A stretch of DNA of 44,791 nt. It comes from a virus. Numbering within the stretch: the first letter of the stretch is position 1; each line of letters opens with the position of its first letter. Shown in pieces: positions 1,450 to 29,653 of the stretch. The stretch is taken from the IMG/VR virus record IMGVR_UViG_3300037352_000062, positions 1-44,791 of that record. One strand, written 5' to 3'. The notes beneath the pieces are model-generated. The model searched no databases. It saw only the letters and a program-made list of their open reading frames with translations, and had not been told where the DNA came from. The position numbers were made by a program, and so were the translations under genes.

Positions 1450-1493
1450 GTGCCCATCCTTGCCGGTGTTTTTCCGGCAAGGGTGGGATACCA
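1450..1493 (+). repeat. Palindromic repeat, family member 1
   Basis: Arms 1453-1466 (CCCATCCTTGCCGG) and 1474-1487 (CCGGCAAGGGTGGG) pair over 14 bp with a single G-T wobble around the loop TGTTTTT. The outer parts, GGTGCCCAT and GGGTGGGATACCAC, recur in other gaps of this window, while the inner stem differs in each copy. Confidence 0.8.
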
Positions 1494-1515
1494 CGAATCG
1501 CCATACACACCGTTG

Positions 1516-1656
1516 CGTATCCCACCCCTGAGCCCGACCAACGGGTTCAAGGACCCCGGATTTCCTACTGCACGGCCCCAGCCAGCCGGGGACCGCATGC
1601 AGTTCGTTGACTTCACCAGGCCGTACAGGAAATCCGGGGGGATGGCGCACCCGTCG
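1516..1656 (-). repeat. Large palindromic repeat of the same family, inverted
   Basis: Read on the minus strand it opens with ACGGGTGCGCCATCC and closes with GGGTGGGATACGC, the family's outer consensus. Between them are perfect 13-bp arms (1554-1566 and 1627-1639, CCCCGGATTTCCT and its complement) and a further paired GGCCGTGC/GTACGGCC segment, with a terminal loop of about 41 bases. Together with member 1 it accounts for most of the gene-free stretch 1342-1759; I see no gene there. Confidence 0.65.
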
Positions 1657-1759
1657 TTTTGTCGCGCCAACTACCGTGCGCAACAACACACTGCAGCCAT
1701 TCGCTCAACCCCGGTGAGAACTGCCGGCTAGACATCCGGCCATCTTGATGGCGAGAGTG

Positions 1760-3349
1760 TTAGAGTCGCCGCATGCCTCCCCGCCGCCCCAACCCCATCC
1801 TTCCCGTGGTGCGGATCGGCGCCTCTTCACGGTCCAGTTCCTCTGCCTTCTGCTGCCACCGGATCGCAGCCGAGCCTAGATCCAGTCCGCGCACTGCGTG
1901 CTGCAGCATTAACTCCCGCGGCTGCGTCGCCTGCTGAATAAACGTATACAACGCATAGCGCGTCTCATCGGCAACGTCATCCAGCGGATCGCCGGCAATC
2001 TTGCGAATGTCTCCGGGCCTAGTATCGTCATGCATGCGCGTGCGCAGGGCTTCGAAGCTCCGCGGGCACACATCGGTGATCTCGAACTCGCCCGTGCGCA
2101 GCATCCGGTAAAGCAACTGCCACCCGCCCAGCCGATCGTTCGACGCCCGCTCGCAGACGATCTCCCACGGCTCCAGCACCTCATTGATCTGGTCGGCAAT
2201 GGTATGGCCGTCGCCGATCTCCTTGAAGTTGGCAGGGTCAAGATAAGCGGCCACGATGCGCCGCCTCTGCCCGTTTTCATTGGGCTTGATAAAGGAATCC
2301 ACCACCATCTTCGCCAGCTCATACGCGGGCACGTGGGGCACCACCAGCTCGCCGATCTTGCGGATGCGCCCTTCTGGAAACTCCGGGCCTTCGTCCTGGT
2401 CCAACAGGCGCGAATCGACGCCGTGTATCTCTACCTTCTGCCGCACCTCCGCCGGGCCGCGGACGTAGAGCCCCACCGAGGAAGAGGACTTGCCGTAGCC
2501 GTAGTCGATGGAGAGGAAGTGGTTGTGCCACCACTCCACGCCGGCCTCGGCCAAAGGGCGCACGATGCCTGCATGCACAAAAGGGAAGTAGGCGCCCTCC
2601 AGCGTGCACCAGCAGCCCTGCTCCATCGCTGCCGCTGCGCCGCCTGACATCATGTGCAGGCGCTTGGTGTAGTGGACGTCCAACAGATTGTGATCGGAGA
2701 GTTTGCCCGGAATAAAGGCAACGGAGAAGGGAATTGCGGCTCCATCGGAAGGCCAGCAGCGGTCACGGTAGAGTTGGCCCGGCTGCGCCGAGTTATGCCG
2801 GTTGTGCACCGGGCAGTGGCCGCGGAGAAATAATGTCTGGTGCCAGGAGGCGCCCACATTGCCGGGATTTGAAGTGAGCCTCATGCGCAGCCGCAAACTC
2901 GCATCGGTCGAGCTCAAGCGGCCCAGGATGTTGCGTACCTGCTTTTCTGTGTGCAGCGTCGATTCGTCAAAGCCAATGAAGGAATAGCGCGGCCCCAGGT
3001 ACTTCCACACGTCGTCGTCCGTCTTCATGTAAGCGAAGCGGATCGTCGCCCCCGAAGGGAAGCTCCACGTCCATTTGGGAGAGCCCACGAAAATGCCGCC
3101 CAGGGGCGGGTAGAGCCGGCGGGTCTTGTCGATAATGTCCGTCATCTCCACGAAGGAGGAGCGGAAGACAATGGCGCGCAGGTTGGGGCTCTCGTACTCC
3201 TGCACCGCGTCCATCAACATGGTTTCGGTTTTGAGCGACCCGGCAGAGCCGCCGAAGAGCAGGATGTCCGCTTCCGAATCGAGCGCTGCCTGTTGCGCGG
3301 CCGTGGCCGGCATCCAGCGATAGTCCGTCTCTGTATCGGATCCAGTCAT
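1760..3349 (-). CDS. terL: Terminase large subunit (DNA packaging ATPase/nuclease)
   Basis: A 529-residue packaging motor. The ATPase domain shows a P-loop at residues 34-41 (GSAGSLKT), Walker B at 124-129 (FIGFDE) and the coupling motif TSNPGN at 159-164. The nuclease domain shows the acidic residues expected of an RNase H-like fold: D282 in SIDYG, D371 in YLDP and D461 in DVADETRYAL. The P-loop has Leu where the usual Gly precedes Lys, a deviation worth noting. The rest of the ATPase core is intact, so I expect activity. The gene is the last of the leftward virion operon, as in T7-like phages. It converts concatemeric DNA into packaged genomes by translocating it through the portal encoded at 18.5-21 kb. 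Confidence 0.95.
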   Translation of the reverse strand: MTGSDTETDYRWMPATAAQQAALDSEADILLFGGSAGSLKTETMLMDAVQEYESPNLRAIVFRSSFVEMTDIIDKTRRLYPPLGGIFVGSPKWTWSFPSGATIRFAYMKTDDDVWKYLGPRYSFIGFDESTLHTEKQVRNILGRLSSTDASLRLRMRLTSNPGNVGASWHQTLFLRGHCPVHNRHNSAQPGQLYRDRCWPSDGAAIPFSVAFIPGKLSDHNLLDVHYTKRLHMMSGGAAAAMEQGCWCTLEGAYFPFVHAGIVRPLAEAGVEWWHNHFLSIDYGYGKSSSSVGLYVRGPAEVRQKVEIHGVDSRLLDQDEGPEFPEGRIRKIGELVVPHVPAYELAKMVVDSFIKPNENGQRRRIVAAYLDPANFKEIGDGHTIADQINEVLEPWEIVCERASNDRLGGWQLLYRMLRTGEFEITDVCPRSFEALRTRMHDDTRPGDIRKIAGDPLDDVADETRYALYTFIQQATQPRELMLQHAVRGLDLGSAAIRWQQKAEELDREEAPIRTTGRMGLGRRGGMRRL

Positions 3350-3383
3350 GACGCAACGGGTCCATCGATGGCAGCAAAGCCAG

Positions 3384-3410
3384 ATGGGTGCCCCACGTTC
3401 GCGTGTGCGG
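3384..3410 (+). repeat. Half-copy of the intergenic palindromic repeat
   Basis: GGGTGCCCCACGTTCGCG matches the left arm of the copies at 13.69 and 18.36 kb. I do not find a convincing right arm nearby, so this looks decayed. It lies in the 232-base gap between the terminase and the gene at 3582, which otherwise holds nothing I can identify. Confidence 0.5.
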
Positions 3411-3581
3411 CTTTCTGAGAAGAAACAATTCCTCGATTAAGCCGCGGTTGGTGTTGGGCACGGCAGGAAACACCACGAAAAGGCGGGAATCGCTTCCACC
3501 TAGACCGCTCTCCTACAACCCCGATCGTTACGTGGAGTGGCAGGCGCCGGTGAGCGCCGCGGGGAGAGCAATGGAAAAAAA

Positions 3582-3971
3582 TCATTGTCGTCCCACGTCA
3601 GGTCTGTCGCTCCGAGCATCCTGGTTGCGCACGCCGTCGGGACCAGCTTCTTCGATGGTCTTTTCCATCAGGAGCCGTCCCATCCATGCCGATTGGTAAA
3701 TCTCCGGCGTAGGCATTCGTTTCATGCTGTTTTTATGCTTCTCGGCCGCCGCCAGGGCCAGCTCTTCACGAAGCGAATCGGGTGCCTTGAGCTGTCCGGA
3801 GATGCTTCCTTTGGTGACCTGCGGCTCCAGGTTGGCCAGTTCCCAATACCTGCCTAGAATCTGGTCGCGGCCGATCTCCATCCAAGGCACCAGACGGGCC
3901 TTGCCACCTTCCTCCTCGGTTCTCTCCCAAAGAGGGGCTTGAGTTCCCGGTGGCATGGGTTGCTTGTTCAT
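3582..3971 (-). CDS. Hypothetical phage protein upstream of the terminase
   Basis: A 129-residue protein starting MNKQPMPPGTQ. An in-frame extension to 4121 exists, but AGGAG lies 8 bases before the ATG at 3971 and the extension has a poor, cysteine-rich composition. The centre is charged and helical (WMEIGRDQILGRYWELANLE, then a helix around DSLREELALAAAEKHKNSMK). Its place directly before terL is where a small terminase often sits, and a short helical protein would fit. I see no recognisable DNA-binding motif, so that role is only a positional guess. The C-terminus is basic and acidic mixed and probably disordered. Confidence 0.7.
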   Translation of the reverse strand: MNKQPMPPGTQAPLWERTEEEGGKARLVPWMEIGRDQILGRYWELANLEPQVTKGSISGQLKAPDSLREELALAAAEKHKNSMKRMPTPEIYQSAWMGRLLMEKTIEEAGPDGVRNQDARSDRPDVGRQ

Positions 3972-4078
3972 CTTGACAACTCCTGATCTGGTATTTTTCC
4001 TGGGGAAACGCATCTCGGAAGGTACGGCGATGTCGCAGCATCTCGCTTTGGCACGCCATTTGTGTAATATTTGCTTCC

Positions 4079-4201
4079 ATGGGAAGCAAAGATAAAGGCA
4101 AGCGCGAAACCAAGAAGGCACCCAAGCCTAAGCCCAAAGTAGAGCCCGGACGCAAACGCGGGGAAGACAGCCGCCTCGGTGGCCCGCCGCCAAAGGTATG
4201 A
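4079..4201 (+). CDS. Small lysine-rich protein
   Basis: A 40-residue plus-strand frame beginning MGSKDKGKRETKKAPKPKPK and ending GGPPPKV. It is highly basic, Lys/Pro-rich and probably disordered. It recalls a class of tiny bacterial proteins opening with SKDKG and lysine tracts, whose function is unknown to me. There is no clear ribosome-binding site. It lies in the 257-base gap between two minus-strand genes, so it would be expressed independently of the virion operon. Codon choice is ordinary for the window. It may be real or a chance frame. Confidence 0.4.
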   Translation: MGSKDKGKRETKKAPKPKPKVEPGRKRGEDSRLGGPPPKV

Positions 4202-4228
4202 TCGCAAAGGGCTGATCGCAGAGCTATT

Positions 4229-5242
4229 TTATTGCAGCGGCTCGCCTTCAGCGCGACGCTGGGGCCGCGCCCGATCCGGACGGCGCAGATCTTTCCGCCG
4301 CACGGTAACGTTACGTCCGTCTTCCGTGCGCACACGCGCGATTCGCATGTTCGGATCCACATAGACGACTCTCGCCGGAGTGCCGTCGGTCAACCTAACC
4401 CTGGAGCCCTTCACCACTCGATCCGCCCACGTATTTTCGAGCCCGGAAGAGCCCGCACTGCTAACTCCATTTCTGGAGTTGAATCGCTCCATGGCAGCGT
4501 CATTGATTGCCCGTGCGGCCGCCCTCACCTGGCCGGCGCTCTTGCCCGCGAGTTCCGCGTTGCGCGCCTCTTTGTAGTCGTGGTGTTCCTGCCGGTTTGC
4601 CTCGAAGACTTCTCGCGGGACGATCTGTAGCTCCTCTGATGCCCCATTGGGCATCTGCACCTGGAGGGAGTAGCTGCGATAGCGATATTCCGGATCGCCG
4701 AAGGCGAAGTTGTCCTGCTGCCGCAACACGGGAAAATGCTGCTTTACTGCGGCCAGCACCGCATCCTTCGCCCGGGGCGAGTCGACCGCGACCTGTGCCG
4801 CACCATAGTCGCTTACCGTTTCTGCAGGCTGCCCCTGCCCGGAAATCTTCTCCGCCAGGCGCGCGGGCTTCTTGGCATCACGGGTCGCCGCCAGCGTCGC
4901 GCCTGGGATATCCCTGAGCACCTCTTCCAGCCTGGACTTGTACGCCGGCATCGCATCGGTCGCCAGCGCCTGGTTGATCGCAGGGTTATCCGTCGGCTGC
5001 ACGATCTTGCGGCCGGAGCCGGGTTCGATGGAGCCCGCCACTTGCGGACGCACGATGAGTTGTTGCATCTGCGGCAACAAGCGTCGCTCGCGCGCTGTTC
5101 TACGTGCCGCTGCCTCCGCTCGCGCGCTGACCACGTGCGTGGCAGTGGGTTCAAACCCCAGCTCGGCAAGGGAGCGGGCGTCGCTTCGCGCCGGGGAACC
5201 AACGGGCTCAAAGCCAAGCCTATGGAGTGGATGTGCGGCCAT
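4229..5242 (-). CDS. RelA/SpoT-like nucleotidyltransferase-domain protein
   Basis: A 337-residue protein. Residues ~98-230 match the order of RelA/SpoT synthetase motifs: a basic helix (KSRLEEVLRDIPG; RDAKKPARLAEKI), then VSDYGAAQVAVD with D145 where the family places its first metal-binding Asp. After that comes YRYRSYSLQVQMPNG (the G/Y-R-S-hydrophobic strand), then EELQIVP with E204 where the second metal-binding Glu lies. The family makes alarmone nucleotides or modifies other substrates by pyrophosphate transfer. A short basic beta-domain (VKGSRVRLTDG to RRKDLR) follows at ~277-320. The N-terminus carries a duplicated LGFEP motif. The frame is open up to a TTG at 5311 with no good ribosome site at either start; ATG 5242 is my choice. 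Activity is inferred, since the G-loop region is divergent. Confidence 0.6.
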   Translation of the reverse strand: MAAHPLHRLGFEPVGSPARSDARSLAELGFEPTATHVVSARAEAAARRTARERRLLPQMQQLIVRPQVAGSIEPGSGRKIVQPTDNPAINQALATDAMPAYKSRLEEVLRDIPGATLAATRDAKKPARLAEKISGQGQPAETVSDYGAAQVAVDSPRAKDAVLAAVKQHFPVLRQQDNFAFGDPEYRYRSYSLQVQMPNGASEELQIVPREVFEANRQEHHDYKEARNAELAGKSAGQVRAAARAINDAAMERFNSRNGVSSAGSSGLENTWADRVVKGSRVRLTDGTPARVVYVDPNMRIARVRTEDGRNVTVRRKDLRRPDRARPQRRAEGEPLQ

Positions 5243-5366
5243 GGTTGCTTTCACAAATGGATGCCTACGAGTGAAGTACCTGGTTGGATTACCGGCGTAA
5301 TTGGGTAGCAACCTCTCGCTTTACGCCGGGTTAGCACCGTATGAAAGGTGGTTGTACGGAGGAACG

Positions 5367-5702
5367 ATGAAGACGAAATGGATAGCGAGTGTGATCTTGG
5401 CTTCGGCACTTACGGCTCCGGCCTTTGCAGGCGTTGGTATATATATCGGCGTTGCGCCACCACCGATTCGCTATGAGGCCCCGCCTCCTATACCGGGTCC
5501 GGGCTACGTTTGGGTGGATGGATATTGGAACCCTGTGGGGGGAAGATATGTGTGGGTCCCGGGCGTTTGGCGGAGACCGCCTTACGCGGGAGCGTACTGG
5601 AACCACCCTCACTATGATCATTACCCGCAGGGATGGGCGCTCCACGAAGGTCACTGGGACCATGAAGACCACGGCGACCATCACGATTGGGGACAGCGGT
5701 AG
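5367..5702 (+). CDS. Secreted WXXGXW-type (YVWV..GYW repeat) protein
   Basis: A 111-residue exported protein. ATG 5367 is preceded by GGAGG at 5 bases and opens a Sec signal peptide (MKTKWIASVILASALTAPAFA). Pro-rich sequence (VAPPPIRYEAPPPIPGPG) leads into two aromatic repeats, YVWVDGYW and YVWVPGVW, typical of small bacterial WXXGXW/YXWGXW-repeat proteins. The C-terminus is very rich in His, Asp and Trp (HEGHWDHEDHGDHHDW), which suggests metal binding. It sits on the opposite strand inside the virion operon and has its own terminator, the layout of a moron gene expressed from the prophage. Function is unknown; a periplasmic or surface role in the host is likely. Confidence 0.85.
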   Translation: MKTKWIASVILASALTAPAFAGVGIYIGVAPPPIRYEAPPPIPGPGYVWVDGYWNPVGGRYVWVPGVWRRPPYAGAYWNHPHYDHYPQGWALHEGHWDHEDHGDHHDWGQR

Positions 5703-5728
5703 TTAGCAGCCACGTGTTTTCTCAACGG

Positions 5729-5758
5729 AGGCTCGACCCTTAGCGTCGGGCCTTTGTA
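5729..5758 (+). terminator. Rho-independent terminator of the WXXGXW-type gene
   Basis: Arms AGGCTCGAC (5729-5737) and GTCGGGCCT (5745-5753) pair over 9 bp with one wobble, around a 7-base loop, and run into TTTGTATT. It lies 27 bases after the stop of the plus-strand gene, which supports a self-contained transcription unit. Confidence 0.65.
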
Positions 5759-5779
5759 TTGCTGGCCGGCCTTATCTGC

Positions 5780-6211
5780 TTATCCTTCGTCCAACACTTC
5801 GAGATTTTTATCTATCTGCTGAGCCAGCCGAAGGTTAGCCTTGGGTAGATAACCCGCTTGGCCGTGCGAGGAAACCTTCACGTACTGGGGATCGCCGCTG
5901 CGGTCGGGCGTTGCTATGGGTGCCGAGTTCACGAAGTATCCTGCGAGGCCGCTGCGCATCGGCATACTCTGCTCGGGTCTTGCCGGCTTCACCTCATCGT
6001 AAGCAGGGGCCCGCGACGGGATCGCCTGTGAGGGGGGCTTTGCCAGGCTGCCTGTCAGCGGAGTGGATTCTCCCGGACCGCTCGCGGGAGCATGATTGGG
6101 CGGCGGCAGCACCAGGCTCTGCGCCTCCGCCGGCGACAGGATCTTTTTGAGCAGCCTGCTTGTTTCGTCTTCACCGGAAACAAAAGTGCTGTAATCCTGA
6201 TCGTCTGCCAT
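5780..6211 (-). CDS. Hypothetical phage protein
   Basis: A 143-residue protein, MADDQDYSTFVSGEDETSR to NLEVLDEG. An acidic N-terminus and a short helix with KKILSPAEAQSLV are followed by a long Pro/Ser-rich linker (residues ~35-85). A more ordered C-terminus follows (QYVKVSSHGQAGYLPKANLRLAQQIDKNLEVL). It is separated by two bases from the gene upstream at 6214-6780, so the two are cotranscribed. I do not recognise a family. The position after the tail genes and before terL fits a minor virion or ejected protein, but nothing in the sequence proves it. Confidence 0.7.
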   Translation of the reverse strand: MADDQDYSTFVSGEDETSRLLKKILSPAEAQSLVLPPPNHAPASGPGESTPLTGSLAKPPSQAIPSRAPAYDEVKPARPEQSMPMRSGLAGYFVNSAPIATPDRSGDPQYVKVSSHGQAGYLPKANLRLAQQIDKNLEVLDEG

Positions 6212-6213
6212 TG

Positions 6214-6780
6214 TTATAGTTTTCCTGCAGCCTTGCCCAGGTTGCCGGCAACGCTGTTGCCAACCTCATCCCAGAAGCTGGGCGTCTGTGCCGCGTGGGT
6301 CTCGTCGCTCAGATCGCTATCAGCCGCGTTCGAAGACGCGCCGTACAGTGCCTGATTCGCCTGGATCGGTACCGCGGACGCGCCAAGCCCTGTCTGGTTA
6401 TAACCAGCCTCATCCGAGATGCGCTGCTGCTGCGCGTTTGCCTGAGAGCTTGCCAGGTTGCGCGTGTTCTGTTGAGCGTTTGACGCTGCTGTGGCCGCAT
6501 CGGCGGCGCTGTTTTGCCCTGTCCGAAGGGCCTGCGATTGCAGCGCACCCTGGAGCGAGTTCGAACCCGCATCGGAGACATTGGCCAGGCCACTGTTGAT
6601 GGTCTGGTCGTACTCGCCTCCCTTGGTATAGGGATTGCCAGAGACGAAATTTGCCAGTTGGTTGTTGTAGTTGCCGATGGCATCTTCCGTCGAGCCGAAG
6701 GCCGACTGCGCGTTGCCAAAGTTGGTTGCGTTCTCGTTCGACCCCGTGTTGAATGCTTGCGTGGATTGGCCTCTGCTCAT
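6214..6780 (-). CDS. Ala/Asn/Gln-rich virion-associated protein, possibly internal
   Basis: A 188-residue protein with a good ribosome site (AGGAG 7 bases before ATG 6780). Composition is dominated by Ala, Asn, Gln, Ser and Gly, with heptad-like polar helices (residues ~60-130) and an amphipathic C-terminal helix (FWDEVGNSVAGNLGKAAGKL). Low-complexity helical proteins with an amphipathic end, encoded after the tail genes of short-tailed phages, are often internal or ejection proteins that enter the cell with DNA. That role is inference from composition and place only. Confidence 0.65.
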   Translation of the reverse strand: MSRGQSTQAFNTGSNENATNFGNAQSAFGSTEDAIGNYNNQLANFVSGNPYTKGGEYDQTINSGLANVSDAGSNSLQGALQSQALRTGQNSAADAATAASNAQQNTRNLASSQANAQQQRISDEAGYNQTGLGASAVPIQANQALYGASSNAADSDLSDETHAAQTPSFWDEVGNSVAGNLGKAAGKL

Positions 6781-6886
6781 CCCGATCTCCTGTGGAGGTT
6801 GGTGGTGCTGGTACGTTTCATGCGCCTTTCCTTATTGAAAGGCGCACACGCGGATCTGTCCAGGTGCTGCGTGGCAGGAGATCGGG
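6781..6886. repeat. Nested inverted repeats between two virion genes
   Basis: A 12-bp perfect inverted repeat (CCCGATCTCCTG at 6781-6792, CAGGAGATCGGG at 6875-6886) brackets the gap and overlaps the ribosome site of the gene starting at 6780. Inside it is a perfect 10-bp hairpin, TGCGCCTTTC at 6821-6830 and GAAAGGCGCA at 6837-6846, with loop CTTATT. No T tract follows on the minus strand, so a processing site or attenuator is as likely as a terminator. Confidence 0.55.
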
Positions 6887-6887
6887 A

Positions 6888-7304
6888 TCATGCTCTCCCC
6901 CTCAGGTCTTTGGCGAAATGGGCTAACTCGCGGTCGACACAGTCGAATCCCGCGCGCCGCAATGGCTTCTGGATCATCTTCTTGAGTTGCCGGGGTACAA
7001 AACACTCCAGCCAGCGAAAACCCTGGAGCTTCAAAACATAACTAAGCCCTTCTATCTCCCGGCGGCAGAACGCGGTCGCCTTGGGGTCGCATCCAACAAA
7101 ACGCAGCTCCGCGATCGTTTCCACGTAGATACAGTTCCTGATCGTTCCGCTCTCTTCCACGCCGACCAAGGCGATGGCAATCGCGGGACCGAACAGGTCA
7201 GGCAATTCGTAATTGGTTCCCTGTGCGGCCTGATGCTCCAGGTGCAATCGCTGAATCGCCGGCCAGTCTTCCCGGGTCGCTTGACGCAGCGTGATGCGCC
7301 TCAT
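6888..7304 (-). CDS. GNAT-like N-acetyltransferase fold protein
   Basis: A 138-residue protein. The opening MRRITLRQATREDWPAIQRLHLEHQ is the beta-strand/helix start typical of GNAT acetyltransferases. A strand with FVGCDPKATAFCRREIEGL and a C-terminal part with GFRWLECFVPRQLKKMIQKPLRRAGF follow, the latter resembling the family's late strand and helix. I cannot see a clean acetyl-CoA pyrophosphate loop (Q/R-x-x-G-x-G/A), so it may be a non-catalytic relative. The start overlaps the previous stop by 4 bases (ATGA), a sign of coupled translation. GNAT-like genes are known among the virion genes of some podoviruses; the substrate here is unknown. Confidence 0.6.
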   Translation of the reverse strand: MRRITLRQATREDWPAIQRLHLEHQAAQGTNYELPDLFGPAIAIALVGVEESGTIRNCIYVETIAELRFVGCDPKATAFCRREIEGLSYVLKLQGFRWLECFVPRQLKKMIQKPLRRAGFDCVDRELAHFAKDLRGRA

Positions 7305-7561
7305 CTCACCCTTAGCCCATGTTTGCCGGCATAGGTAAGCATCTGCCGCTGCGACGTATTCAGCGCCTCATTCACGCCGGCGATAGCGGCCGCCGGGTCC
7401 AGCGTCTCCAGGTTGTCTTTGGGATGGACCGCTCCGCACGCCGGGCACGAATCATGGCCAATGGCAAGCTGTATCAGGTGCCGGTGGCCCCGCTCGTCGC
7501 GCAGCTCGATCACATGAAAGCCGCTCGCCATGTCTACATACTGCTCGTGCAGGCTATACAT
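7301..7561 (-). CDS. Small phage protein with a CxxC motif
   Basis: An 86-residue protein starting MYSLHEQYVDMASGFHVIEL. ATG 7561 lies inside the end of the upstream gene (stop 7554), with GGGAGG 10 bases before it. The centre has DERGHRHLIQLAIGHDSCPACGAVHP, a half zinc-site or redox pair. The C-terminus (QRQMLTYAGKHGLRVR) is basic and helical. Overlaps on both sides show it belongs to the virion operon. A longer in-frame start at 7603 is open but has no ribosome site. Function unknown. Confidence 0.7.
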   Translation of the reverse strand: MYSLHEQYVDMASGFHVIELRDERGHRHLIQLAIGHDSCPACGAVHPKDNLETLDPAAAIAGVNEALNTSQRQMLTYAGKHGLRVR

Positions 7562-8645: not shown

Positions 8646-11616
8646 CGCCGCTCCTGCCCGTGTACAACGGACGCGTGAAGAGGCTGCAATACTTGAGCGC
8701 AAACCAGGCGTTCGCGACCGCTCCATTGGTGAAGCGCATGCGGAAGCGCTCATTTTGTCCCCGGGCGCCACCGTCGTAGCCTTTCCAGTTTTCCGGCGTC
8801 AGCGGAAAGGGCGCCAGCTTAATCTCGTTACTGCCCGTGGCGTTGCTTCCTTCGTCCGTCTGCTGAGAGTCTGCATAGCTTCTCGCCACCATAACGGATA
8901 CGGTCATCGAACCCTGGCCCAGCGCATTGATGCTGACGCCGCCCAGCATCGACACATCCATTAAGTCCTGCGTGCTGGTGGTCTCGTATTGGCAGGTAAT
9001 CCCGCTCCCGTTGTCGTTGTAAACGCCGGTCGCAATCATCTGCACTGTCCCATCGGGAGAAGAGGAGCCAATCAGCACCTGAGACTGCCGTAGGGCCCCG
9101 AATGGCGAGGCATTCCCCGGCAGCTGGCGCTCACAGCGCACGGCCACCGATCCGGCCACGTCATCCAGACTCCACTTGCGCGCCGCGCCCATAGCGACCT
9201 CTCGGCCCGCATACTGGCTGAAGTGGATGGGTCCCGACAGGCCTTCCATGTAGTTCATGGTCAGTGTCTGGTTGGGCACCGTCGCGTTCCCCACCGGGAT
9301 GCCGATCCGGATCTCCTTGTTCTCTTCATCTACACAGCACCAGATCACATGCTGGTAATCCCAGTTGATGTTCTGCCACAGGGTAGGGATCTCCTTGGTC
9401 ATCAGCTTGGGCTGCGCTTCACTGGGCGTGTAGGCGTACGCACCGCTGCGATGCACGAAGAACAGGAACTCGTTGGTGACGCAAACAGCCCGCGGCCCAC
9501 ATGGCCCTACGCCCTCCCACCGCTGCTGCACTGACCAGGTGGACGGATCGGTTGCTGTCGGCGAGATGGTGAAGCCAGAGCGCTCTTTCAAGGAGAAGAG
9601 CGTTCCCTGAAATTCGCGGGCGCAGATGCATCGCTGTCCATTGCCGTTCGCTACCTGGATTGGGCTGGTATCGCCGTAGTAGGACTCCGAGTCGGCGGCC
9701 AGCGAGATGTAGTGGCCCGATCCATATCCGTCCACACCGCTTAGCACCACGCGATCGTTCGATGGCGAATAGTACACATCGACCGCCGCCGGGGGGACCA
9801 CGCAGCGCAGCCTGTCCGTCATGTCGGTCGAGGTCTCCGCTTCCAGAAACTCGTCGGTGAAGTTGAAGAATGCGGTCGTAGTCGTGTTGTCGCCGATCAC
9901 CGTCGCCGCCATCGCGATGCCGGCGCTCACCGTCGCCGCGGGAATGTAGAAGAACGGGCCCACATTCGTGCCGTCCGCAACCGTGAATCCGATCGTGCGG
10001 TTGATTATGTTGCCTGATCCAATCGGAATGTTGGCCATGTACAGTTCGTAGCCCGGTACATCCACGCTGACGGAGGTAAAGGCCGGAACCGTGCCGCTCA
10101 GGTTTCCGTTGCGATTGGTGAAGGCGATGCTGGCATAGCGAAGGCCCGGGCTCGCGTCTGCTGCGATATTGCCCGCCGCCCCTGAGGTGTTGGACACTGG
10201 AGGAGCCGGCCCGCTCGCGGAGGCAATAATCGTGGCGGTTGTAAGCGGCTGAAATGATCCCACGAACGCGTAGGTGTTGGTAGCAGGCGCGGCGGCTCCG
10301 GTGGCAACGTCGGCCTCATAAAGATTCACTCCCGTAATCTGGCATAGCGTGGAGGGAATGGGAACCTGTACTGCGTCGTCGAGGATGGTGTTGATCAGCG
10401 TTCCGGCAACCGAGGGCAGCGTCTCCCCCGATGCATTGGTGAAGGTGGCAATCACGTAGACATCCCGCCCAGCAGGAAAGCTGCCCGAGCTCGACGCGCG
10501 TTCGACGGTAGGTGTCGATGGGGGCTGCAATCCGCCCGGAGTGACCCGAGCGGTATTCGAGGATGGCGGCGCAATCCCGCTTGCCGTTGTCGTCACCGTG
10601 ACCGTGGTGCCAAGCGCAAAATTCCCTACCTTGGCAAAGCTCGCCGAAGAGGGAGCTGCGGCGCCCGTGGCGACGTCCGCCTCGTATACGTTGACGGATA
10701 CCGGCTGATACGCCGCGGCCAGCCCACGAATCCACCCCGCCAGGCTGGACAAGGCTGGTACCGTGAACTCCGCGGCATCATTCAAATTGGTGTTGACCAG
10801 GATGCCCGGAGCCGAAGCAATCGACTCTCCCTGTGCGTTGACGTAGGTCATCTCCAGGTAGACATCGCGGCCCGCGGCGAAAGCTCCGCCGCTTGCAACC
10901 CTGCCGGGCTGCGGCGAGTTGGGCGCCGGCAGCCTGTTCACCAGCACCGGCGTCAGCTCTTCCCAGCTTACGCCGCCATCCGTAACCGTCGCGTTTTCCG
11001 AAAGCGGCCACACTGGCTCCGTGGTGGACGTCGTCCCCGCCACGATGCATCGGTAGAGGTGTCCATTGCCACCCGCCGCAGTTGGTTGGACGTACTCGCC
11101 CACGACATACGCCGTGGACTTCAGCCAGGATGCACCGAGAGGTTTCTGCCCATACGGGTCAAGCTCCTCCGTGCTCAGCCCATAAACGTTGATCGGAGCC
11201 GAGGGTGTCTTCAGGTCTGAATACGCGATCAGGGCCCGGTTATAGGCCTCGGTCACGATCGCGTGCGCGTTCGCCGGCTGGCTCACCAGCGGCCCCTGCA
11301 CCCGCACCAGTTTTCCGCTGCCTGCCGGCCTTTCGACCAGCAGATAGCCGTCAGTATCGAAGACCATTGGTACCTGGAAGAGCGTCTCGCCAGGATTCTC
11401 CGGGGTATAAATCAAAGAAGCCAGGCCGGTAATAGGGACCTGGTTTGGTCCCTGCATGACCGTCTGCAGGCCGTAGCGTGTGGCCACGGTCGTGAGTTGA
11501 AATCTGCAGTTCCTGCAGACCGCCGCAACGCCCATAGGCAGCACGGTCGGATCGTCATTGTCTACGAGCCCACCAAAGCGAGTGAACTCGTGCGGGATGA
11601 AGCCGTCAAAGTTCAT
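8635..11616 (-). CDS. Large tail protein, nozzle-like (beta-propeller candidate)
   Basis: A 993-residue structural protein. The N-terminus (MNFDGFIPHEFTRFGGLVDN, then DDPTVLPMGVAAVCRNCRF and TRYGLQTV) matches the opening of many phage tail proteins that lay out genome-exit parts. Residues ~243-355 and ~376-478 are two tandem beta-sandwich repeats, both carrying AGRDVY and the identical peptide YEADVATGAAAP. Residues ~530-900 have recurring strands with bulky motifs (YYSPSNDRVVLSGVDGYGSG, FQGTLFSLKERSG, NEFLFFVHRSGAYAY, HVIWCCVDEENKEIRIGIP) as in a beta-propeller, the fold of podoviral nozzle proteins. The gene follows the adaptor-like gene in transcription order, which fits a nozzle. There is no signal peptide. 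Confidence 0.75.
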   Translation of the reverse strand: MNFDGFIPHEFTRFGGLVDNDDPTVLPMGVAAVCRNCRFQLTTVATRYGLQTVMQGPNQVPITGLASLIYTPENPGETLFQVPMVFDTDGYLLVERPAGSGKLVRVQGPLVSQPANAHAIVTEAYNRALIAYSDLKTPSAPINVYGLSTEELDPYGQKPLGASWLKSTAYVVGEYVQPTAAGGNGHLYRCIVAGTTSTTEPVWPLSENATVTDGGVSWEELTPVLVNRLPAPNSPQPGRVASGGAFAAGRDVYLEMTYVNAQGESIASAPGILVNTNLNDAAEFTVPALSSLAGWIRGLAAAYQPVSVNVYEADVATGAAAPSSASFAKVGNFALGTTVTVTTTASGIAPPSSNTARVTPGGLQPPSTPTVERASSSGSFPAGRDVYVIATFTNASGETLPSVAGTLINTILDDAVQVPIPSTLCQITGVNLYEADVATGAAAPATNTYAFVGSFQPLTTATIIASASGPAPPVSNTSGAAGNIAADASPGLRYASIAFTNRNGNLSGTVPAFTSVSVDVPGYELYMANIPIGSGNIINRTIGFTVADGTNVGPFFYIPAATVSAGIAMAATVIGDNTTTTAFFNFTDEFLEAETSTDMTDRLRCVVPPAAVDVYYSPSNDRVVLSGVDGYGSGHYISLAADSESYYGDTSPIQVANGNGQRCICAREFQGTLFSLKERSGFTISPTATDPSTWSVQQRWEGVGPCGPRAVCVTNEFLFFVHRSGAYAYTPSEAQPKLMTKEIPTLWQNINWDYQHVIWCCVDEENKEIRIGIPVGNATVPNQTLTMNYMEGLSGPIHFSQYAGREVAMGAARKWSLDDVAGSVAVRCERQLPGNASPFGALRQSQVLIGSSSPDGTVQMIATGVYNDNGSGITCQYETTSTQDLMDVSMLGGVSINALGQGSMTVSVMVARSYADSQQTDEGSNATGSNEIKLAPFPLTPENWKGYDGGARGQNERFRMRFTNGAVANAWFALKYCSLFTRPLYTGRSGDGT

Positions 11617-11623
11617 TTAGCTT

Positions 11624-11989: not shown

Positions 11990-12017
11990 GATTTCTCCTT
12001 ATTAAGAGTTGAGATAA

Positions 12018-13651: not shown

Positions 13652-13690
13652 CGATCAAGCTCCTTGAGTGCTAAGTTTCGGGACAGGTTA

Positions 13691-13722
13691 AGACGGGTGC
13701 CCACGTTCGCGACGCGTACCAA
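13691..13722 (+). repeat. Half-copy of the intergenic palindromic repeat
   Basis: GACGGGTGCCCACGTTCGC repeats the left arm seen at 3384 and 18361 with one base missing. The right arm is not evident; GCTCACGTGTGCGC a little further on may be its remnant. It occupies the short gap between the genes at 12695-13651 and 13737-14444. Confidence 0.5.
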
Positions 13723-13736
13723 TGCTCACGTGTGCG

Positions 13737-15217: not shown

Positions 15218-15270
15218 CGCTGAGCTCTCCATAGAAATTTGACTGTTCTGTCCCACCGAAGGAACGACGA

Positions 15271-15324
15271 GTGCCCCATCCTAGATCCCAACGTTCTTTG
15301 TTGGGAGCTAGGGTGGGATTCCAC
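15271..15324 (+). repeat. Palindromic repeat, family member with 18-nt arms
   Basis: Arms 15275-15292 and 15300-15317 pair at 16-17 of 18 positions (one mismatch, one wobble) around the loop GTTCTTT. Outer consensus GTGCCCCATCC and GGGTGGGATTCCAC is intact. The inner stem, CTAGATCCCAAC with its complement, is unlike that of any other copy. Confidence 0.85.
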
Positions 15325-15352
15325 AAAACTCAACCTCTGGGTTTTCAAACCA

Positions 15353-15386: not shown

Positions 15387-15409
15387 CCCTAAGTGCAGCT
15401 ACTTACTGG

Positions 15410-16693: not shown

Positions 16694-16744
16694 GAAAGCG
16701 ATTCCTTATCTGCGGCGTAAGCGCCGCGCCAATCCTTTAATCCC

Positions 16745-18313: not shown

Positions 18314-18360
18314 AGTAGGATCTGCTTTCTAATCCGGCTGCAGCCAAAGAGCTGGAGCAA

Positions 18361-18395
18361 GACGGGTGCCCCACGTTCGCACCGGGGTACGTGGG
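18361..18395 (+). repeat. Palindromic repeat, short-armed family member
   Basis: GACGGGTGCCCCACGTTCGC is followed by the right arm ACGTGGG. CCCACGT (18370-18376) pairs with ACGTGGG (18389-18395) over 7 bp. It lies in the 140-base gap between scaffold and portal genes. Its left arm is shared with the half-copies at 3384 and 13691. Confidence 0.65.
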
Positions 18396-18453
18396 AAAAA
18401 TCAGGATGGTTTCCGTTGCTTTATGCGAGAGGGCGTAACCGCTGTTCTACCCA

Positions 18454-21390: not shown

Positions 21391-21424
21391 CGTCGGTTCA
21401 CCCTATCCCCTCCGCAGACCAAGA

Positions 21425-21465
21425 GGTGCCCCATCCTTCGCGCTTCTTGCGAAGGGTGGGATACG
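21425..21465 (+). repeat. Palindromic repeat, family member
   Basis: CCCATCCTTCGC (21430-21441) and GCGAAGGGTGGG (21449-21460) pair over 12 bp with one wobble around the loop GCTTCTT. The outer consensus GGTGCCCCATCC / GGGTGGGATACGC is complete. It lies in the 104-base gap between a fibre-domain gene and the coiled-coil gene. Confidence 0.85.
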
Positions 21466-21494
21466 CGGCGCTATCTTGACACTTTTTTCCGCAA

Positions 21495-24580: not shown

Positions 24581-24596
24581 AAAGTGAGTGATTGCC

Positions 24597-24962
24597 TTAG
24601 TCGAATTCCGTCACCCGGACGATCGTTGTGTTCGTGCTTGCCGACCTTAGGTTGATAAGCAGTGTCGCAGCGATGGTATACCCTCCCGAATTATCCGGCG
24701 GCGTACCGATCACTATCCCATATCCTCCGCCTTGAGGGACTGGTGTGCCGAGCAAAATCGGCTCGGACTGTGGCTCGATCGTGTATGTAGTGGTGAATGG
24801 TGTGGCTGAGCCATCGTTGAACTGGTACGCGATGCCCTGGCCAGTTCCGCCATTCGCGCTGCCGTCTTCGATGATCTCGACCCGCCGGGTCACTTGGGTT
24901 GCAGAGACGGCGACAAACGCGCCGGCACTGCCGTTCAGCGTAATCAATCGTGTGTGGGCCAT
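24597..24962 (-). CDS. Small beta-rich structural protein
   Basis: A 121-residue protein, AAAGG six bases before ATG 24962. Alternating beta-strand pattern (HTRLITLNGSAGAFVAVSAT, RRVEIIEDGSANGGTGQGIA, TYTIEPQSEPILLG, TIAATLLINLRSASTNTTIV) with Gly/Thr-rich loops and no Cys. Size and style resemble decoration or head-fibre proteins, and the protein at 11624-11989. It has no signal peptide, unlike the fibre just downstream. Role inferred from style only. Confidence 0.65.
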   Translation of the reverse strand: MAHTRLITLNGSAGAFVAVSATQVTRRVEIIEDGSANGGTGQGIAYQFNDGSATPFTTTYTIEPQSEPILLGTPVPQGGGYGIVIGTPPDNSGGYTIAATLLINLRSASTNTTIVRVTEFD

Positions 24963-24964
24963 GG

Positions 24965-25147
24965 TTAGCCTTTCTCTTTCCGCATCTTCATCAGTGTTTC
25001 GGCCAGCCTCGCGCGCTTGCCTGTCTTGCCCCCAGCGTCCTCGCGCTCGCTGGCGAATTCTGCCGTACTCTCGCCGGCGCGTTGGGCCAGCGCCTTGAAG
25101 GTTCCGGGCTTCTTGATCGCTCTTTCGATCCAGTGTTTGCTGCTCAT
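24965..25147 (-). CDS. Small basic phage protein (KHWIERAIKKPG type)
   Basis: A 60-residue basic protein. The opening SSKHWIERAIKKPGTFKALA and the ending GGKTGKRARLAETLMKM match a short protein class that I recall as frequent in phage structural regions, function unknown. It is helical and lysine-rich, and could bind DNA or a virion protein. Its ATG overlaps the lipoprotein gene stop (25144-25147) by 4 bases. Confidence 0.7.
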   Translation of the reverse strand: MSSKHWIERAIKKPGTFKALAQRAGESTAEFASEREDAGGKTGKRARLAETLMKMRKEKG

Positions 25148-25482
25148 ATGAGGGACTCCTTCTTTAGCATCTCGTCGAGTGCGACCAGCGCATCCCAGTC
25201 GTCATGTAGCTTGGTCACATCCTCGAGGAATGAGCTTTTTTTGTCGTCCTGTTGCGCCATCGCGATATCGGCCTTAACCGTGGCAATCTCCACCTGTTCG
25301 TACCTCGAGATAGCGTCGGCGTCCCACATTGGCAGCTTGTCTGCCACCGCCACCACGAAATCTCTGGCGTCTGAGATCTCAGCATCGGGGAGGACGCGCA
25401 CGGCGACGGGCCGATGCGCTGAGCATCCCGAGATAAGCAGCAGCATCACGCCGTGGATCAGGCACGAGAGCCAGAGGGCCAT
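25144..25482 (-). CDS. Small lipoprotein, possible lysis accessory
   Basis: A 112-residue protein with a lipoprotein signal: hydrophobic run LIHGVMLLL and the lipobox ISGC, so Cys20 should be lipidated. The mature part is acidic and helical (SFLEDVTKLHDDWDALVALD). GGGG lies 7 bases before the ATG at 25482. Outer-membrane-anchored small lipoproteins in phage lysis regions can serve as outer spanins. A holin-like gene is close by (26044), but the mature part is not proline-rich as classical Rz1 is. So the spanin idea is weak; a superinfection-exclusion lipoprotein is another option. Confidence 0.65.
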   Translation of the reverse strand: MALWLSCLIHGVMLLLISGCSAHRPVAVRVLPDAEISDARDFVVAVADKLPMWDADAISRYEQVEIATVKADIAMAQQDDKKSSFLEDVTKLHDDWDALVALDEMLKKESLI

Positions 25483-25512
25483 TGGGTTACCCCGTTAAGG
25501 ATTTGGAACCAC

Positions 25513-25860
25513 TTACTTGGCTTTGCCGAACGCCGCCTCGACCTGGGCGACAACCTCGGGGAACTCGGTAATCAGCTTCTTCACTTCGGCCACTACGGAA
25601 GCATCGAAGGCGACGTTGACGCCGTTGGCGCCCGCCGCCGTCTCGGTAGCTTGCACGGCCGCGACCAGCTCGCCCAGCGCACCGAAAGCAATCTGCTCCA
25701 CCGCCGCAGCCTGTGGACTCACCAGCGAAGTCAGCGACTCAATAACCTGTTCTTCGTTCTGTAGACCGCCGAGGACCGTGACCACCTTCTTCGAAACAGT
25801 GACTACATCTTTAAGTAGGGACGCGAATGCGTGCCCGGCCGACTGCCAGGTAAATGCCAT
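25513..25860 (-). CDS. Hypothetical phage protein next to the holin-like gene
   Basis: A 115-residue protein from ATG 25860 (AAGGAG 8 bases upstream): MAFTWQSAGHAFASLLKDVV. A longer frame to 25977 is open, but it lacks a ribosome site and runs through a palindromic repeat. The sequence is Ala/Val-rich and helical (VVTVSKKVVTVLGGLQ, ALGELVAAVQATETAAGANG, VVAEVKKLITEFPEVVAQVE) without a real membrane span. I recall similar small proteins beside lysis genes in phage-like regions, with no known function. Confidence 0.7.
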   Translation of the reverse strand: MAFTWQSAGHAFASLLKDVVTVSKKVVTVLGGLQNEEQVIESLTSLVSPQAAAVEQIAFGALGELVAAVQATETAAGANGVNVAFDASVVAEVKKLITEFPEVVAQVEAAFGKAK

Positions 25861-25927
25861 GGGAACTCTCCTTATGTGTGTTGTGTTACACGGTTTGCAA
25901 AAGTCAGAGGTTGGAGAAAGCACTGTA

Positions 25928-25973
25928 CGGGTGCCCCATACCGCGCACGTCTTTTGTGCAAGATATGGGAATT
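25928..25973 (+). repeat. Palindromic repeat, interrupted-stem family member
   Basis: Outer arms CCCATA (25935-25940) and TATGGG (25964-25969), an unpaired 4-nt internal loop on each side, then GCAC (25945-25948) with GTGC (25956-25959) around the loop GTCTTTT. Flanks are GGGTGCCCCAT and ATTCCA. Same design as the other copies, but the outer GGGTGG is changed to ATATGGG together with its partner. Confidence 0.7.
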
Positions 25974-26043
25974 CCATACCTTCCCCAGACTATGCGGGAA
26001 GATTTAGATTAGTTTTCGGAGCTTTCGTACGGAAGCACCACCG

Positions 26044-26271
26044 TTATTGACCTTTAACCATGGTGGTGGTCAACGTCGGCACCGGGCTACTTTTCAGATA
26101 AGCAAATACTGCCAGCAATGCCGGCACAGTAGCCAGCTTGACCATATTGACAAACCCCGCCCTGTCGAACGTAAATACGCTAGGCAGCGCGATTGCGCCG
26201 CTAGCCGCCGAGGCAAAGGCCGAAATAGCAGCCGCTGCCAAGCCGTGAATCCATACCTTGAGATTGTTCAT
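26044..26271 (-). CDS. Holin-like small membrane protein
   Basis: A 75-residue protein; ATG 26271 has GGAGG five bases upstream, and an in-frame extension to 26322 is unlikely. Two hydrophobic segments, VWIHGLAAAAISAFASAASGAIA (positions ~6-28) and VKLATVPALLAVFAYL (~45-60), are followed by a polar end SSPVPTLTTTMVKGQ. Size, two spans and closeness to an endolysin gene suggest a holin, which permeabilises the inner membrane and releases the endolysin. The unrelated membrane protein at 30211 could instead play this part. Confidence 0.65.
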   Translation of the reverse strand: MNNLKVWIHGLAAAAISAFASAASGAIALPSVFTFDRAGFVNMVKLATVPALLAVFAYLKSSPVPTLTTTMVKGQ

Positions 26272-26290
26272 GGTACCCTCCTCTTCTCTT

Positions 26291-29200
26291 TTAGTACGGC
26301 GTACAAGCGAAGCTGATGACATCGCCAGAGGCCGTGGTTCCAGAAAGCGTTGCTGTAGTCTGGCTGCTAGCGGTTTGCTTAATCGTATCCGCAGTTGTAG
26401 TCAAATCGTTGGCCGTGCAGGCATAGCCATGAGGAGCAGTGACTCCGGTCGTAAGCACTACCGTGCATGTGCCCGAGGTGCCCGAATCGTAGGAACCTGC
26501 CGTCGCTCCACCCACCAGGGTGCTGTTGTTGCATCCGCTGGCCGTAAAGGTCGTTCCCCCGGCAAACATGTTGGCCGTGTTCAGCGCAGGCGAGTTGCTG
26601 AGCGTGGGCGCATTCGTTGATAACGCCGGCTTGAAAGCCGCACAAGTCATTGTCATAGGACTGGCAGAGCTACTTGTAATAGCAGGAGTTATGGCCCCCA
26701 CTGCAGATTGAACTTTGTACTGCGCGAGAGAATTAGCGCCTCCTGCTGCTGCGCCTGCCGTAAATCCTGCGCCTGCCGTAAAGTCGTCTGCTCCCGTCTC
26801 GTTTTGGGCGGCACAAAATAGGTAATCATTGGCAGAGGTTGTGGTGATCGCGGTGGAACATGGGCTTGAAGTTACAGCGATGGTATCAGCATAGCAAGGG
26901 GCTCCGTCAACAGGGTAAGACGAGGCAATGCCTGTGGCCGTATCCCCTAGTATCACCAATCCACTACTGCTACTCGAACTGGTAACCGTTGTCGTGGTTA
27001 TGGACGATGCAAGAGGGCCGAAGTAAAAGAGCTGGGTCTGACCTACGATATCCGGGGGGTTATAAGAAGCTGCGACTGCTGTATAGACATTGCTCGCTGA
27101 ATCAGTTACCGAGAGAGTCGCGCCACCGGTGTAGTTATAGACACCAATGGCAACAAACTCTCCGATGGCTGGGGCGGTGCTCCAGGTGCAAGTGGAAGTA
27201 GTTCCGCTTGTTGTGAAATGGGCGCAGGTCTTTGTCGTTGGAGTCGAGATTGCTCCGCTCCCATGCGACACCAACACTTCGTCGGTAGCCGCGGCATTGC
27301 CTGGCAAGCGAGCTGCCACGCCTGAAGCTCCAGCATATGCAAGGTCACCTAAAGTGGTTGAATCTCCTAGAGTCGTCGTAGCAGTTGGTGTGTTGTAGTG
27401 GGCAAAGTAGCCATTGCTGTCAGAATTGACTGATTGGCCGGTGTAAGCATTTACGACGGCCGGGTTGGGATATGTCCATGGTCCGGACCCGTAGGTAAAC
27501 CAGATATCGTCCACGACTGCCATGGTGTTGTAAGCACTGGTGATCGAGACAGCAGGAAATCCGGCATGTCCGTACTGGGGAAGGGTAATGTGAGAAATGC
27601 TCGCCCTGGTGCATCCGTTGATCAAATAGATTGCTGCTGGATTACTGCTCTCCCCTGTTTCCGTGTAGACGTGGTCTAAGGCGAAGCTTGAGACGGTCGA
27701 GTTTCGCGTGTCGTTGCAGAAAACTGCAGAGTTCCCGGCCCCCGGATGAACGATGGTTCCGTTGCTAAAAGTGAAGTCTCGCGTAAAGTTGCCGCTGTCG
27801 GTCTGAATTAAGAGCGGCGTGCCATAAAAGCCAGCATTAATTGAGCTATGGGTCCACGTCGTTTGGCAACAGGCTCCGTAGATCTCTGCTGGATAAGCAT
27901 CGAGATTATCGAAAACATTCACTGCATCGAGAACCGAGGCGTCTGCAATCTGCCCAGTCAGCAGGAAGCCGACTCCCGTAGAAGTCGCATGACCGCCGCC
28001 ACCATCGTTTGTGATTTGAAAGCCGTGGTCGTAAACGTAAGGGTAGTTCAGACTGGTGCCGCTCACGATCTCGTATATGACGCTCGGATTCGATGAGCTA
28101 TTCGTTGTGAACTGCATTTGGGGGCCATTCGAGGCGCAGTTACTCGTAACTGTCGTTCCTGCGTACTGCTCGACAACTGGAGTGGTGTTAGTCATCGATC
28201 CGGTCCAGTACACACCACACGGAAGGATCAAGCCGACCTTATCGTTGTTGTTGTCGCCAATCACAATAGTGGCGGCAATTGTTTGATTTCCTGACTCTCC
28301 ACTGCTGTCACAAAGTAGTGACGTATTTCCATTGGTGCCGTTCAGGGCATCGCTAAGGCAAGCGTTGACGCGGACATCGACCGTTGCTCCGGTGTAAAGC
28401 TCGGAGTGGGATATGCCGTTGATCGCCTTTACTGCCAGAGGGCCGCTGAGCGTTTGGAGTGTTGTTAGTGCTGGATCGAGGTAATCCGTGCCCGCCGTCG
28501 CCGCCACCACCCCATTTGCGCTGCCACTGCCCTTGAGCACCAAGTTGGTGGCTGGAGTGCTGGCGCCTCCGGATGCGATGCACCCACCCGCTTGCGGAGA
28601 AAACGCATAGCCTGCTGTACCGCAACCCGTGAGCCCGCCCCAGTAGCTTGGCGTGAGATAGTCCGTATTTGGCGTAGCGACGGATGCACTGCCGGCTGTT
28701 CCACTGCCCTTAAGCAGATCGCTGGTTGCAGGGATCGACGAGGCGGTAAGGGCATTATTGAGCACAAAGAGATCGGTGGCGATCTTTGCTGTGTTGTCTC
28801 CTGAACCCTGCGTGGTCGCTGTGCTGCCGTTGGGGATTGCCGAGGCTCCGGCAAGCGCTGTGGCTGTGGCAACGTTCCCGCTGGGGATCACATAGTCGGT
28901 TCCCGGAGTCGCTGCTGCGACTGAGTTCGCTACTCCTGCACCTTTCAATACGTTCGATGTGGCTGGAGTGCTGGCGCCTCCACCGGTAGCGTTTTGCACG
29001 TACTGCGAGCCATTCCAGGCATAAGAGGTGTACGGCGTGGTGGTGACGTCCACCAGGCCAAGATTGGTATTGCCGTGTACCGAAGCGATAACCGCGGACG
29101 GGCTCGATGGGGCAACCAGCGTGTACCATTCCGCATTCAGGATGATGGTATTCGGCCCGCCGCCGCGGTCGATCCCGTTGGTAAGTGCCTCCTGCAGACC

Positions 29201-29560
29201 GCCGGTTCCCGAAGTAAGATAGAACGACTCATGGCTATATATCGTCGGCAGACTGACAGCGCAAGAGTCGATAAACACTGCGACTGGAGTTGCGATCTCG
29301 GTCAGGCTCGGATCACTATCGACGATCTTGATGGGGGCTCCCATAGCGAATGCATTAAAGTTCCGGCCGCCTCCGCTCACGTGACAGGTCGCCGGCGGAA
29401 ACTTGAAACCATCACCCATCGCAGGTACCTGGAATTCGCCAAACTGCGCGGCGACGATTTGACCTTCAACATTCTGCGCCTGGACGCGGTCGCAGAATGG
29501 CAACGTCGAGAGGGCCAAAAGAAGAAGCGCCCACAAACGGCAACGTCTTACTCTGCGCAT
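26291..29560 (-). CDS. Secreted modular fibre, paralog 2
   Basis: A 1089-residue protein. ATG 29560 opens a signal peptide (LWALLLLALSTLPFC to VQA before QN); upstream in-frame sequence covers a repeat and is not used. The shared N-terminal module follows (QNVEGQIVAAQFGEFQVPA, IKIVDSDPSLTEIATP, GTGGLQEAL, NLGLVDVTTTPYTSYAW). Three spaced repeats of the type VLKG-G/S-G...ATPGTDY-P come next, a fibre-shaft pattern. A beta-helix-like middle (ACLSDALNGTNGNTSLLCD onward) and a long Ser/Thr-rich region follow. The C-terminal domain ends with ASGCNNSTLVGGATAGSYDS and SGTTASGDVISFACTPY. It differs completely from paralog 1 after the N-module. Likely a surface-binding fibre or enzyme, exported. Confidence 0.75.
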   Translation of the reverse strand: MRRVRRCRLWALLLLALSTLPFCDRVQAQNVEGQIVAAQFGEFQVPAMGDGFKFPPATCHVSGGGRNFNAFAMGAPIKIVDSDPSLTEIATPVAVFIDSCAVSLPTIYSHESFYLTSGTGGLQEALTNGIDRGGGPNTIILNAEWYTLVAPSSPSAVIASVHGNTNLGLVDVTTTPYTSYAWNGSQYVQNATGGGASTPATSNVLKGAGVANSVAAATPGTDYVIPSGNVATATALAGASAIPNGSTATTQGSGDNTAKIATDLFVLNNALTASSIPATSDLLKGSGTAGSASVATPNTDYLTPSYWGGLTGCGTAGYAFSPQAGGCIASGGASTPATNLVLKGSGSANGVVAATAGTDYLDPALTTLQTLSGPLAVKAINGISHSELYTGATVDVRVNACLSDALNGTNGNTSLLCDSSGESGNQTIAATIVIGDNNNDKVGLILPCGVYWTGSMTNTTPVVEQYAGTTVTSNCASNGPQMQFTTNSSSNPSVIYEIVSGTSLNYPYVYDHGFQITNDGGGGHATSTGVGFLLTGQIADASVLDAVNVFDNLDAYPAEIYGACCQTTWTHSSINAGFYGTPLLIQTDSGNFTRDFTFSNGTIVHPGAGNSAVFCNDTRNSTVSSFALDHVYTETGESSNPAAIYLINGCTRASISHITLPQYGHAGFPAVSITSAYNTMAVVDDIWFTYGSGPWTYPNPAVVNAYTGQSVNSDSNGYFAHYNTPTATTTLGDSTTLGDLAYAGASGVAARLPGNAAATDEVLVSHGSGAISTPTTKTCAHFTTSGTTSTCTWSTAPAIGEFVAIGVYNYTGGATLSVTDSASNVYTAVAASYNPPDIVGQTQLFYFGPLASSITTTTVTSSSSSSGLVILGDTATGIASSYPVDGAPCYADTIAVTSSPCSTAITTTSANDYLFCAAQNETGADDFTAGAGFTAGAAAGGANSLAQYKVQSAVGAITPAITSSSASPMTMTCAAFKPALSTNAPTLSNSPALNTANMFAGGTTFTASGCNNSTLVGGATAGSYDSGTSGTCTVVLTTGVTAPHGYACTANDLTTTADTIKQTASSQTTATLSGTTASGDVISFACTPY

Positions 29561-29604
29561 GTGTACACCGATGCTCCAGAAATCCTGACATGGAAAAGTA
29601 GAGC

Positions 29605-29653
29605 CGGGTGCTTCATATCTACCCGCGTTCTTTCCCGGGAGATGTGGGTGGGA
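29605..29653 (+). repeat. Palindromic repeat, diverged family member
   Basis: CATATCT (29614-29620) pairs with AGATGTG (29640-29646), then CCCG (29622-29625) with CGGG (29636-29639) after a one-base bulge, around a loop containing CGTTCTTT. Outer flanks are GGGTGCTTCAT and GGGTGGGACC. It lies just upstream of the fibre start at 29560, in the 146-base gap after the endolysin gene. Confidence 0.7.

Follow-up and report, generated by a model that had tools for sequence, protein, structure and literature searches.

REP-like palindromes of soil Acidobacteriota in the gaps of a phage genome, probably copied there by a host transposase

Short hairpins scattered through the gaps of a phage genome are best explained as acidobacterial REP-like palindromes that a host RAYT transposase (TnpAREP, HUH/Y1) mobilises in trans and that the phage acquired in its host. 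We hold this explanation with considerable confidence. It makes the hairpins palindromes of soil Acidobacteriota that were probably copied into the phage gaps by a host transposase. Family identity, copy number, the flanking of RAYT genes, filled and empty sites and strand bias are shown directly; movement by the RAYT, targeting of the lagging-strand template and transfer from host to phage are inferred from them. The high copy number in Acidobacteriaceae and the viral stretches with the motif identify the hairpins as a host repeat family that is also found in phages, and not as a phage RNA element.

Hairpin copies in the window and in related phages

The stretch of DNA analysed here (the window) is a virus record of 44,791 bases. 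Its left block lies nearly all on the minus strand and encodes a terminase (1760-3349), head decoration and structural proteins, a tail-spike-like protein and an endolysin; the right part has genes for a sigma factor and a primosomal-type protein. The same phage (>99.9% identical to the window) is present in several separate IMG metagenome records (L117, L118, L122, L133). The hairpin motif reads GTGCCC(C)A-stem-loop-stem-TGGGA(T). A strict two-arm pattern, GTGCCCCAT-N10-36-GGGTGGGAT, matches the window twice (15271 and 21426) and was found 0 times in 100 shuffles. Allowing one mismatch or none, the head GGGTGCCCCAY is found nine times, against an expectation of 2.7 and a shuffle maximum of 8.

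A preliminary description had reported nine copies, all in gaps of the structural block. The copies are real and so is their location, in a block that runs leftward, but their condition varies: three form strong hairpins, another three are weak or have decayed, two survive as relics and one is split by an insert. Strong ssDNA hairpins are limited to the plus-strand copies at 1450..1490 (z -7.4), 15269..15320 (z -6.5, with an internal mismatch) and 21424..21463 (z -4.6). Three further plus-strand copies have ssDNA z values of -1.1, -1.0 and -1.2, and many shuffles fold equally well. The first, at 18364..18396, belongs to the ACGTTCGC/ACGTGGGA class, is recognised by its head match and has a short stem. 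The second, at 25929..25971, is a decayed REP of the ATATCTCGC class with mismatches in mid-stem, and the third, at 29606..29654, is a decayed REP with the outer arm GTGCTTCAT. These weak folds are due to a short stem or to decay. The two copies described as halves, at 3384 and 13691, are both incomplete. One (3386..3460, plus strand) has an exact head, GGGTGCCCCACGTTCGC, with no ACGTGGGA tail after it; the other (13695..13722, plus strand) is a deletion relic of the ACGTTCGC class, and a complete GGGTGCCCCACGTTCGCGACGCGTACGTGGGAT stands at the same site in the related phage L121.

The inverted copy reported at 1516 is a full element. It spans 1519..1652 on the minus strand, with its head GGGTGCGCCAT at 1652-1642 and its tail ATCCCACCC at 1519-1527, and is split by a MITE-like insert of 82 bp (1556..1637, unstranded) with the inverted ends CCGGATTTCCT...AGGAAATCCGG. 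It forms an inverted, BIME/REPIN-like pair with the copy at 1450. Relatives of the insert, 104-105 bp long and with CCGGATTTCCT ends, lie inside REPs of the phages L125 and L198, and the dinucleotide TA is doubled at the two readable insertion points of this longer form. The element as a whole (82-105 bp, ends CCGGATTTCCT/AGGAAATCCGG) recurs inside or beside phage REPs at 4410, 4631, 9635 and 11864 of L125 and at 9427 and 12704 of L198. A search for its relatives in the host loci examined found none.

Each gap was compared with its counterpart in related phages, whose flanks are similar (mostly 80-98% identical). The gap at 15271 is filled in the window, L121 and L125, empty in L199 and L200, and occupied by a different hairpin in L198. 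At 18364 the hairpin is present in L121, L125 and L198 and missing from L199. In the gap at 21425 the window has a TTCGC stem; L121, L195 and L198 have an ATCTCGC (ATATCTCGC) stem in its place, and L125 has nothing. The copy at 25929 has an intact ATATCTCGC...GCGAGATG counterpart in L187 and is absent from L188. The one at 29605 is present only in the window and its near-identical copies, the whole stretch being missing from L187 and L188.

Copies that are gained, lost, decayed and nested in this way follow the pattern of mobile DNA and not that of a conserved regulatory RNA. The pattern also speaks against the earlier suggestion of RNA processing or packaging sites. Within the gap at 15271, both members of one stem pair differ between L125 (T-A) and the window (G-C) and a neighbouring pair is broken, so that within-phage selection on the fold is at best weak. 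Neither a transposition event nor a target duplication of the hairpins was identified. The swap of a whole stem at one site is not directly explained by our preferred explanation; a favoured site may have received separate insertions, or REPs may have recombined by way of the arms that they share.

A repeat family of Acidobacteriaceae

When one genome per species was searched, the motif matches listed fell almost only in Acidobacteriaceae and their relatives. The genome G001 carries 129 strict and 142 relaxed copies, and 12 other genomes carry 20-122 relaxed copies each. The strict form is present in 55 of 150 Acidobacteriaceae genomes, and a reversed-pattern control gave 0 matches in all genomes scanned. 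Among IMG/VR records the motif was found in 19 stretches, which include several near-identical copies of the window phage and some chance matches. Host copies lie mostly between genes: 96 of 178 are outside ORFs of at least 100 aa, compared with about 16% of the DNA, an enrichment that is approximate because host genes were called simply as longest ORFs. Inverted pairs recur in G001 as +/- doublets about 90-100 bp apart, start to start. The proposal, made in the preliminary description, that the palindromes are mobile and have long resided in the host is thus supported by the copy number in Acidobacteriaceae, by the flanking of transposase genes described below and by the filled and empty phage sites.

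The hairpins are imperfect and 30-50 nt long. Each has GTGC as its foot and CCCA/TGGG as its base, and the stem usually contains a conserved T.G wobble. The foot, which is unpaired, reads GGGTGC in most copies and lacks the canonical form GT[AG]G, which makes the family a variant of the REP type; other REP classes (2.6 and 3) likewise have no GT[AG]G (PMC6006769). Of 140 distinct host stem cores, 127 have T.G as their first inner pair. Through this conserved wobble the two strands are unequal, and a transposase that binds ssDNA could use the difference to tell them apart. Covariation was tested by column shuffles on the same 140 cores. At stem position 6, where the pairs are GC (49), CG (48), TA (31) and AT (6), 138 of the 140 cores are paired compared with 60 after shuffling. 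The cores had been pre-selected for at least 7 paired positions; the absolute percentage paired is inflated by this choice, but the diversity of pair types is not. Covariation is strong across copies, although it does not serve as evidence of RNA, since recognition of a DNA hairpin by a transposase produces an equal signal.

Flanking of RAYT genes and orientation to replication

A search with PF01797 recovered Y1 genes in ten acidobacterial genomes; these genes split into a RAYT-like clade and others. GTGCCCC heads lie within about 250 bp of 12 of the 13 RAYT-clade genes and of 2 of the 15 other Y1 genes (counted from the tabulated results). Among 30 further loci of the clade, 19 are flanked by hairpins and 11 have no such hairpin at the criterion used, whereas 22.7 kb of control Y1 loci contained a single one. 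The flanking hairpins are mostly 50-150 bp from the gene and often face inward from both sides. Five of the flanked RAYTs were tested and score 100-117 bits against NCBIfam REP_Tyr_transpos (NF047646, cut-off 80). These RAYTs score under the IS200 cut-off, and one matches the structure of the E. coli TnpAREP, 4ER8. The HUH motif (H61xH63) and the catalytic Y118...N122 are invariant in eight clade members. In L174 (701-1266), seven tandem REPs about 87 bp apart, with the covarying outer arm CCCCGTCC/GGGCGGGA, lie directly behind the RAYT gene.

There is usually one stem class per RAYT gene, the same at both ends (CCGAGCC, TAGCC, GTCTCG and ACGTTCGC are examples), and each stem class is cognate to its own RAYT gene. 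At least three stem classes are present in the window: ATCC...GGGTGGGA, ACGTTCGC...ACGTGGGA and ATATCTCGC...GAGATGTGGGA. The ACGTTCGC class, which adjoins the RAYT gene in L307, is that of the window copies at 3386, 13695 and 18364. The fully different inner stems of the window, initially interpreted as compensatory drift within one family, are therefore largely different REP classes.

These associations suggest that RAYT is the mover of the REPs. No recognisable RAYT was found in the window or in its phage relatives; a phage-encoded mobiliser was rejected on this ground, and spread within the phage by the phage itself, as once suggested, is unlikely. The RAYT clade is present in 120 of the 150 genomes, and a comparison of copy number with RAYT presence is therefore uninformative. 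Some genomes combine many copies with no RAYT (G060 has 59 relaxed copies and no clade RAYT at E<=1e-20), which indicates that some copies are orphans or were moved in the past.

All singletons of the window are on the plus strand, opposite to the genes, an orientation on which the preliminary description was silent. In the virus record G013 the copies are in gene sense, in contrast to the antisense copies of the window, and the window's own GC skew is too weak for judging fork direction. Single host copies follow replication and not transcription. Gene-strand bias is absent in two sets of host copies (67/129 and 45/83). In contrast, 99 of 117 host singletons are on the C-rich strand (p 1e-14). 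With one vote per genome the count is 48 of 55, and it is 38 of 38 genomes when |skew| > 0.08. A second, independent set, made up of 20-kb flanks from four genomes, has 79 of 83 singletons on the C-rich strand (p 4e-19), and its inverted pairs are strand-neutral (3/6). Contig C6 of G001 has nine parS sites, parA and parB next to the point, at about 80 kb, where its GC skew changes sign, and the orientation of the copies flips at this ori/parS region, from 25/26 '+' on one side to 15/16 '-' on the other (counted from the listing). The first 135,000 bases of this contig (1-135000, L136-L142) hold 42 single REPs in 125 kb, packed very densely up to about 75 kb from the origin/parS cluster; in the rest of G001 the copies are sparser and often form inverted pairs.

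Of all arguments for an action of the hairpins at the DNA level, the strand bias is the strongest. Phage RNA elements, such as processing or stability hairpins in 5' UTRs with a fold under selection, would account for hairpins in gaps upstream of gene starts, for the shared orientation of the window singletons and for the covarying stems. The host copies have no gene-strand bias and a strong replication-strand bias, the copies come and go, decay and are interrupted among related phages, and no curated Rfam covariance model matched, all of which leaves this explanation little probability. The RNA-element reading was dropped on the strand statistics. Packaging sites, also considered earlier, fare no better, as the copies are not phage-specific. 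That the hairpins are rho-independent terminators of the phage operon, to which GC-rich intergenic hairpins might point, is hardly credible: no T tract follows them, as had already been noted, and about half of the host singletons are opposite to the nearest gene.

A motif of replication or segregation polarity, comparable to KOPS and other architecture-imparting sequences, would have its orientation kept by selection and not set by insertion. Such a motif would explain why orientation tracks GC skew in the 79 of 83 singletons and why the G001 copies cluster around ori/parS and change orientation at this point. It is nevertheless improbable, if less so than an RNA element. Inverted pairs are common and strand-neutral, the stems vary between and within genomes, the classes track RAYT genes and not a conserved motif, and the strict form is missing from 95 of the 150 family genomes.

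An orientation that follows the direction of replication points to insertion at the replication fork. The bias fits published links of Y1 transposases to this structure: those of IS200/IS605 are tied to the lagging-strand template, and the fork has been proposed as the source of ssDNA for TnpAREP (PMC6006769). In the mechanism that we favour, the phage would collect REPs as a bystander in the acidobacterial cell, as a prophage or during replication, and its REPs would thus come from its host. RAYT would join a single-stranded intermediate to the exposed ssDNA of one template strand, presumably the lagging-strand template, which would give one orientation per fork, and inverted doublets, once inserted, would appear as pairs. 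The phage gaps would tolerate insertions, and the REPs there could then decay, be deleted or receive a second element. We lean slightly towards the stronger proposal that RAYT-driven insertion is tightly coupled to the fork. Single REPs would then be a record of the direction of replication in host chromosomes, would gather close to the origin in some genomes and, in phages, would indicate which way the fork ran through the integrated form.

Relationship to known REP systems

There is no settled account of how REPs spread, and their transposition has little direct evidence behind it. The related phages described here supply natural filled, empty and stem-swapped REP sites, and dozens of RAYT genes are each paired with their own hairpin class. 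The singleton strand bias of about 95% makes the predicted link between RAYT and the fork directly testable. The results also carry a caution: hairpins that covary and lie in phage gaps can be DNA repeats of the host and not RNAs. In the open-licence PMC papers searched we found no report of a replication-strand bias of REPs or of REPs in acidobacterial phages. In 400 kb of E. coli K-12 (L309-L316), the GTAG strand is the leading-strand sequence in nine of ten single REPs (p 0.02); these ten copies, too few to conclude from, hint that the bias may be general to REPs.

The Y1 HUH transposase is shared with the IS200/IS605 family, in which IS608-type insertion and excision take place on the lagging-strand template (PMC6006769). 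The present system differs in that no autonomous element is seen to move and in the RAYT scores under the IS200 cut-off. A sharply defined RAYT-like group, TIRYT, was described in 2013 from the Acidobacteria T. saanensis, K. versatilis, A. capsulatum and G. mallensis (PMC3733652). It is flanked by long terminal inverted repeats; of those in K. versatilis, only the ones belonging to ORF1552 make up a repeat family. Compared by description, TIRYT and the present clade are both acidobacterial, RAYT-like and repeat-flanked; long terminal inverted repeats are the TIRYT form.

REPs, BIMEs and REPINs with RAYT (TnpAREP) are known from E. coli and Pseudomonas fluorescens (PMC3116915, PMC8266576, PMC6006769). 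Like these, the acidobacterial elements are short imperfect palindromes of high copy number that form inverted pairs tens of bp apart, and each class flanks its own Y1 transposase gene. They differ in the GTGC foot, which replaces GT[AG]G, in the replication-strand bias of the singletons, in their occurrence in phages and in their phylum, the Acidobacteriota.
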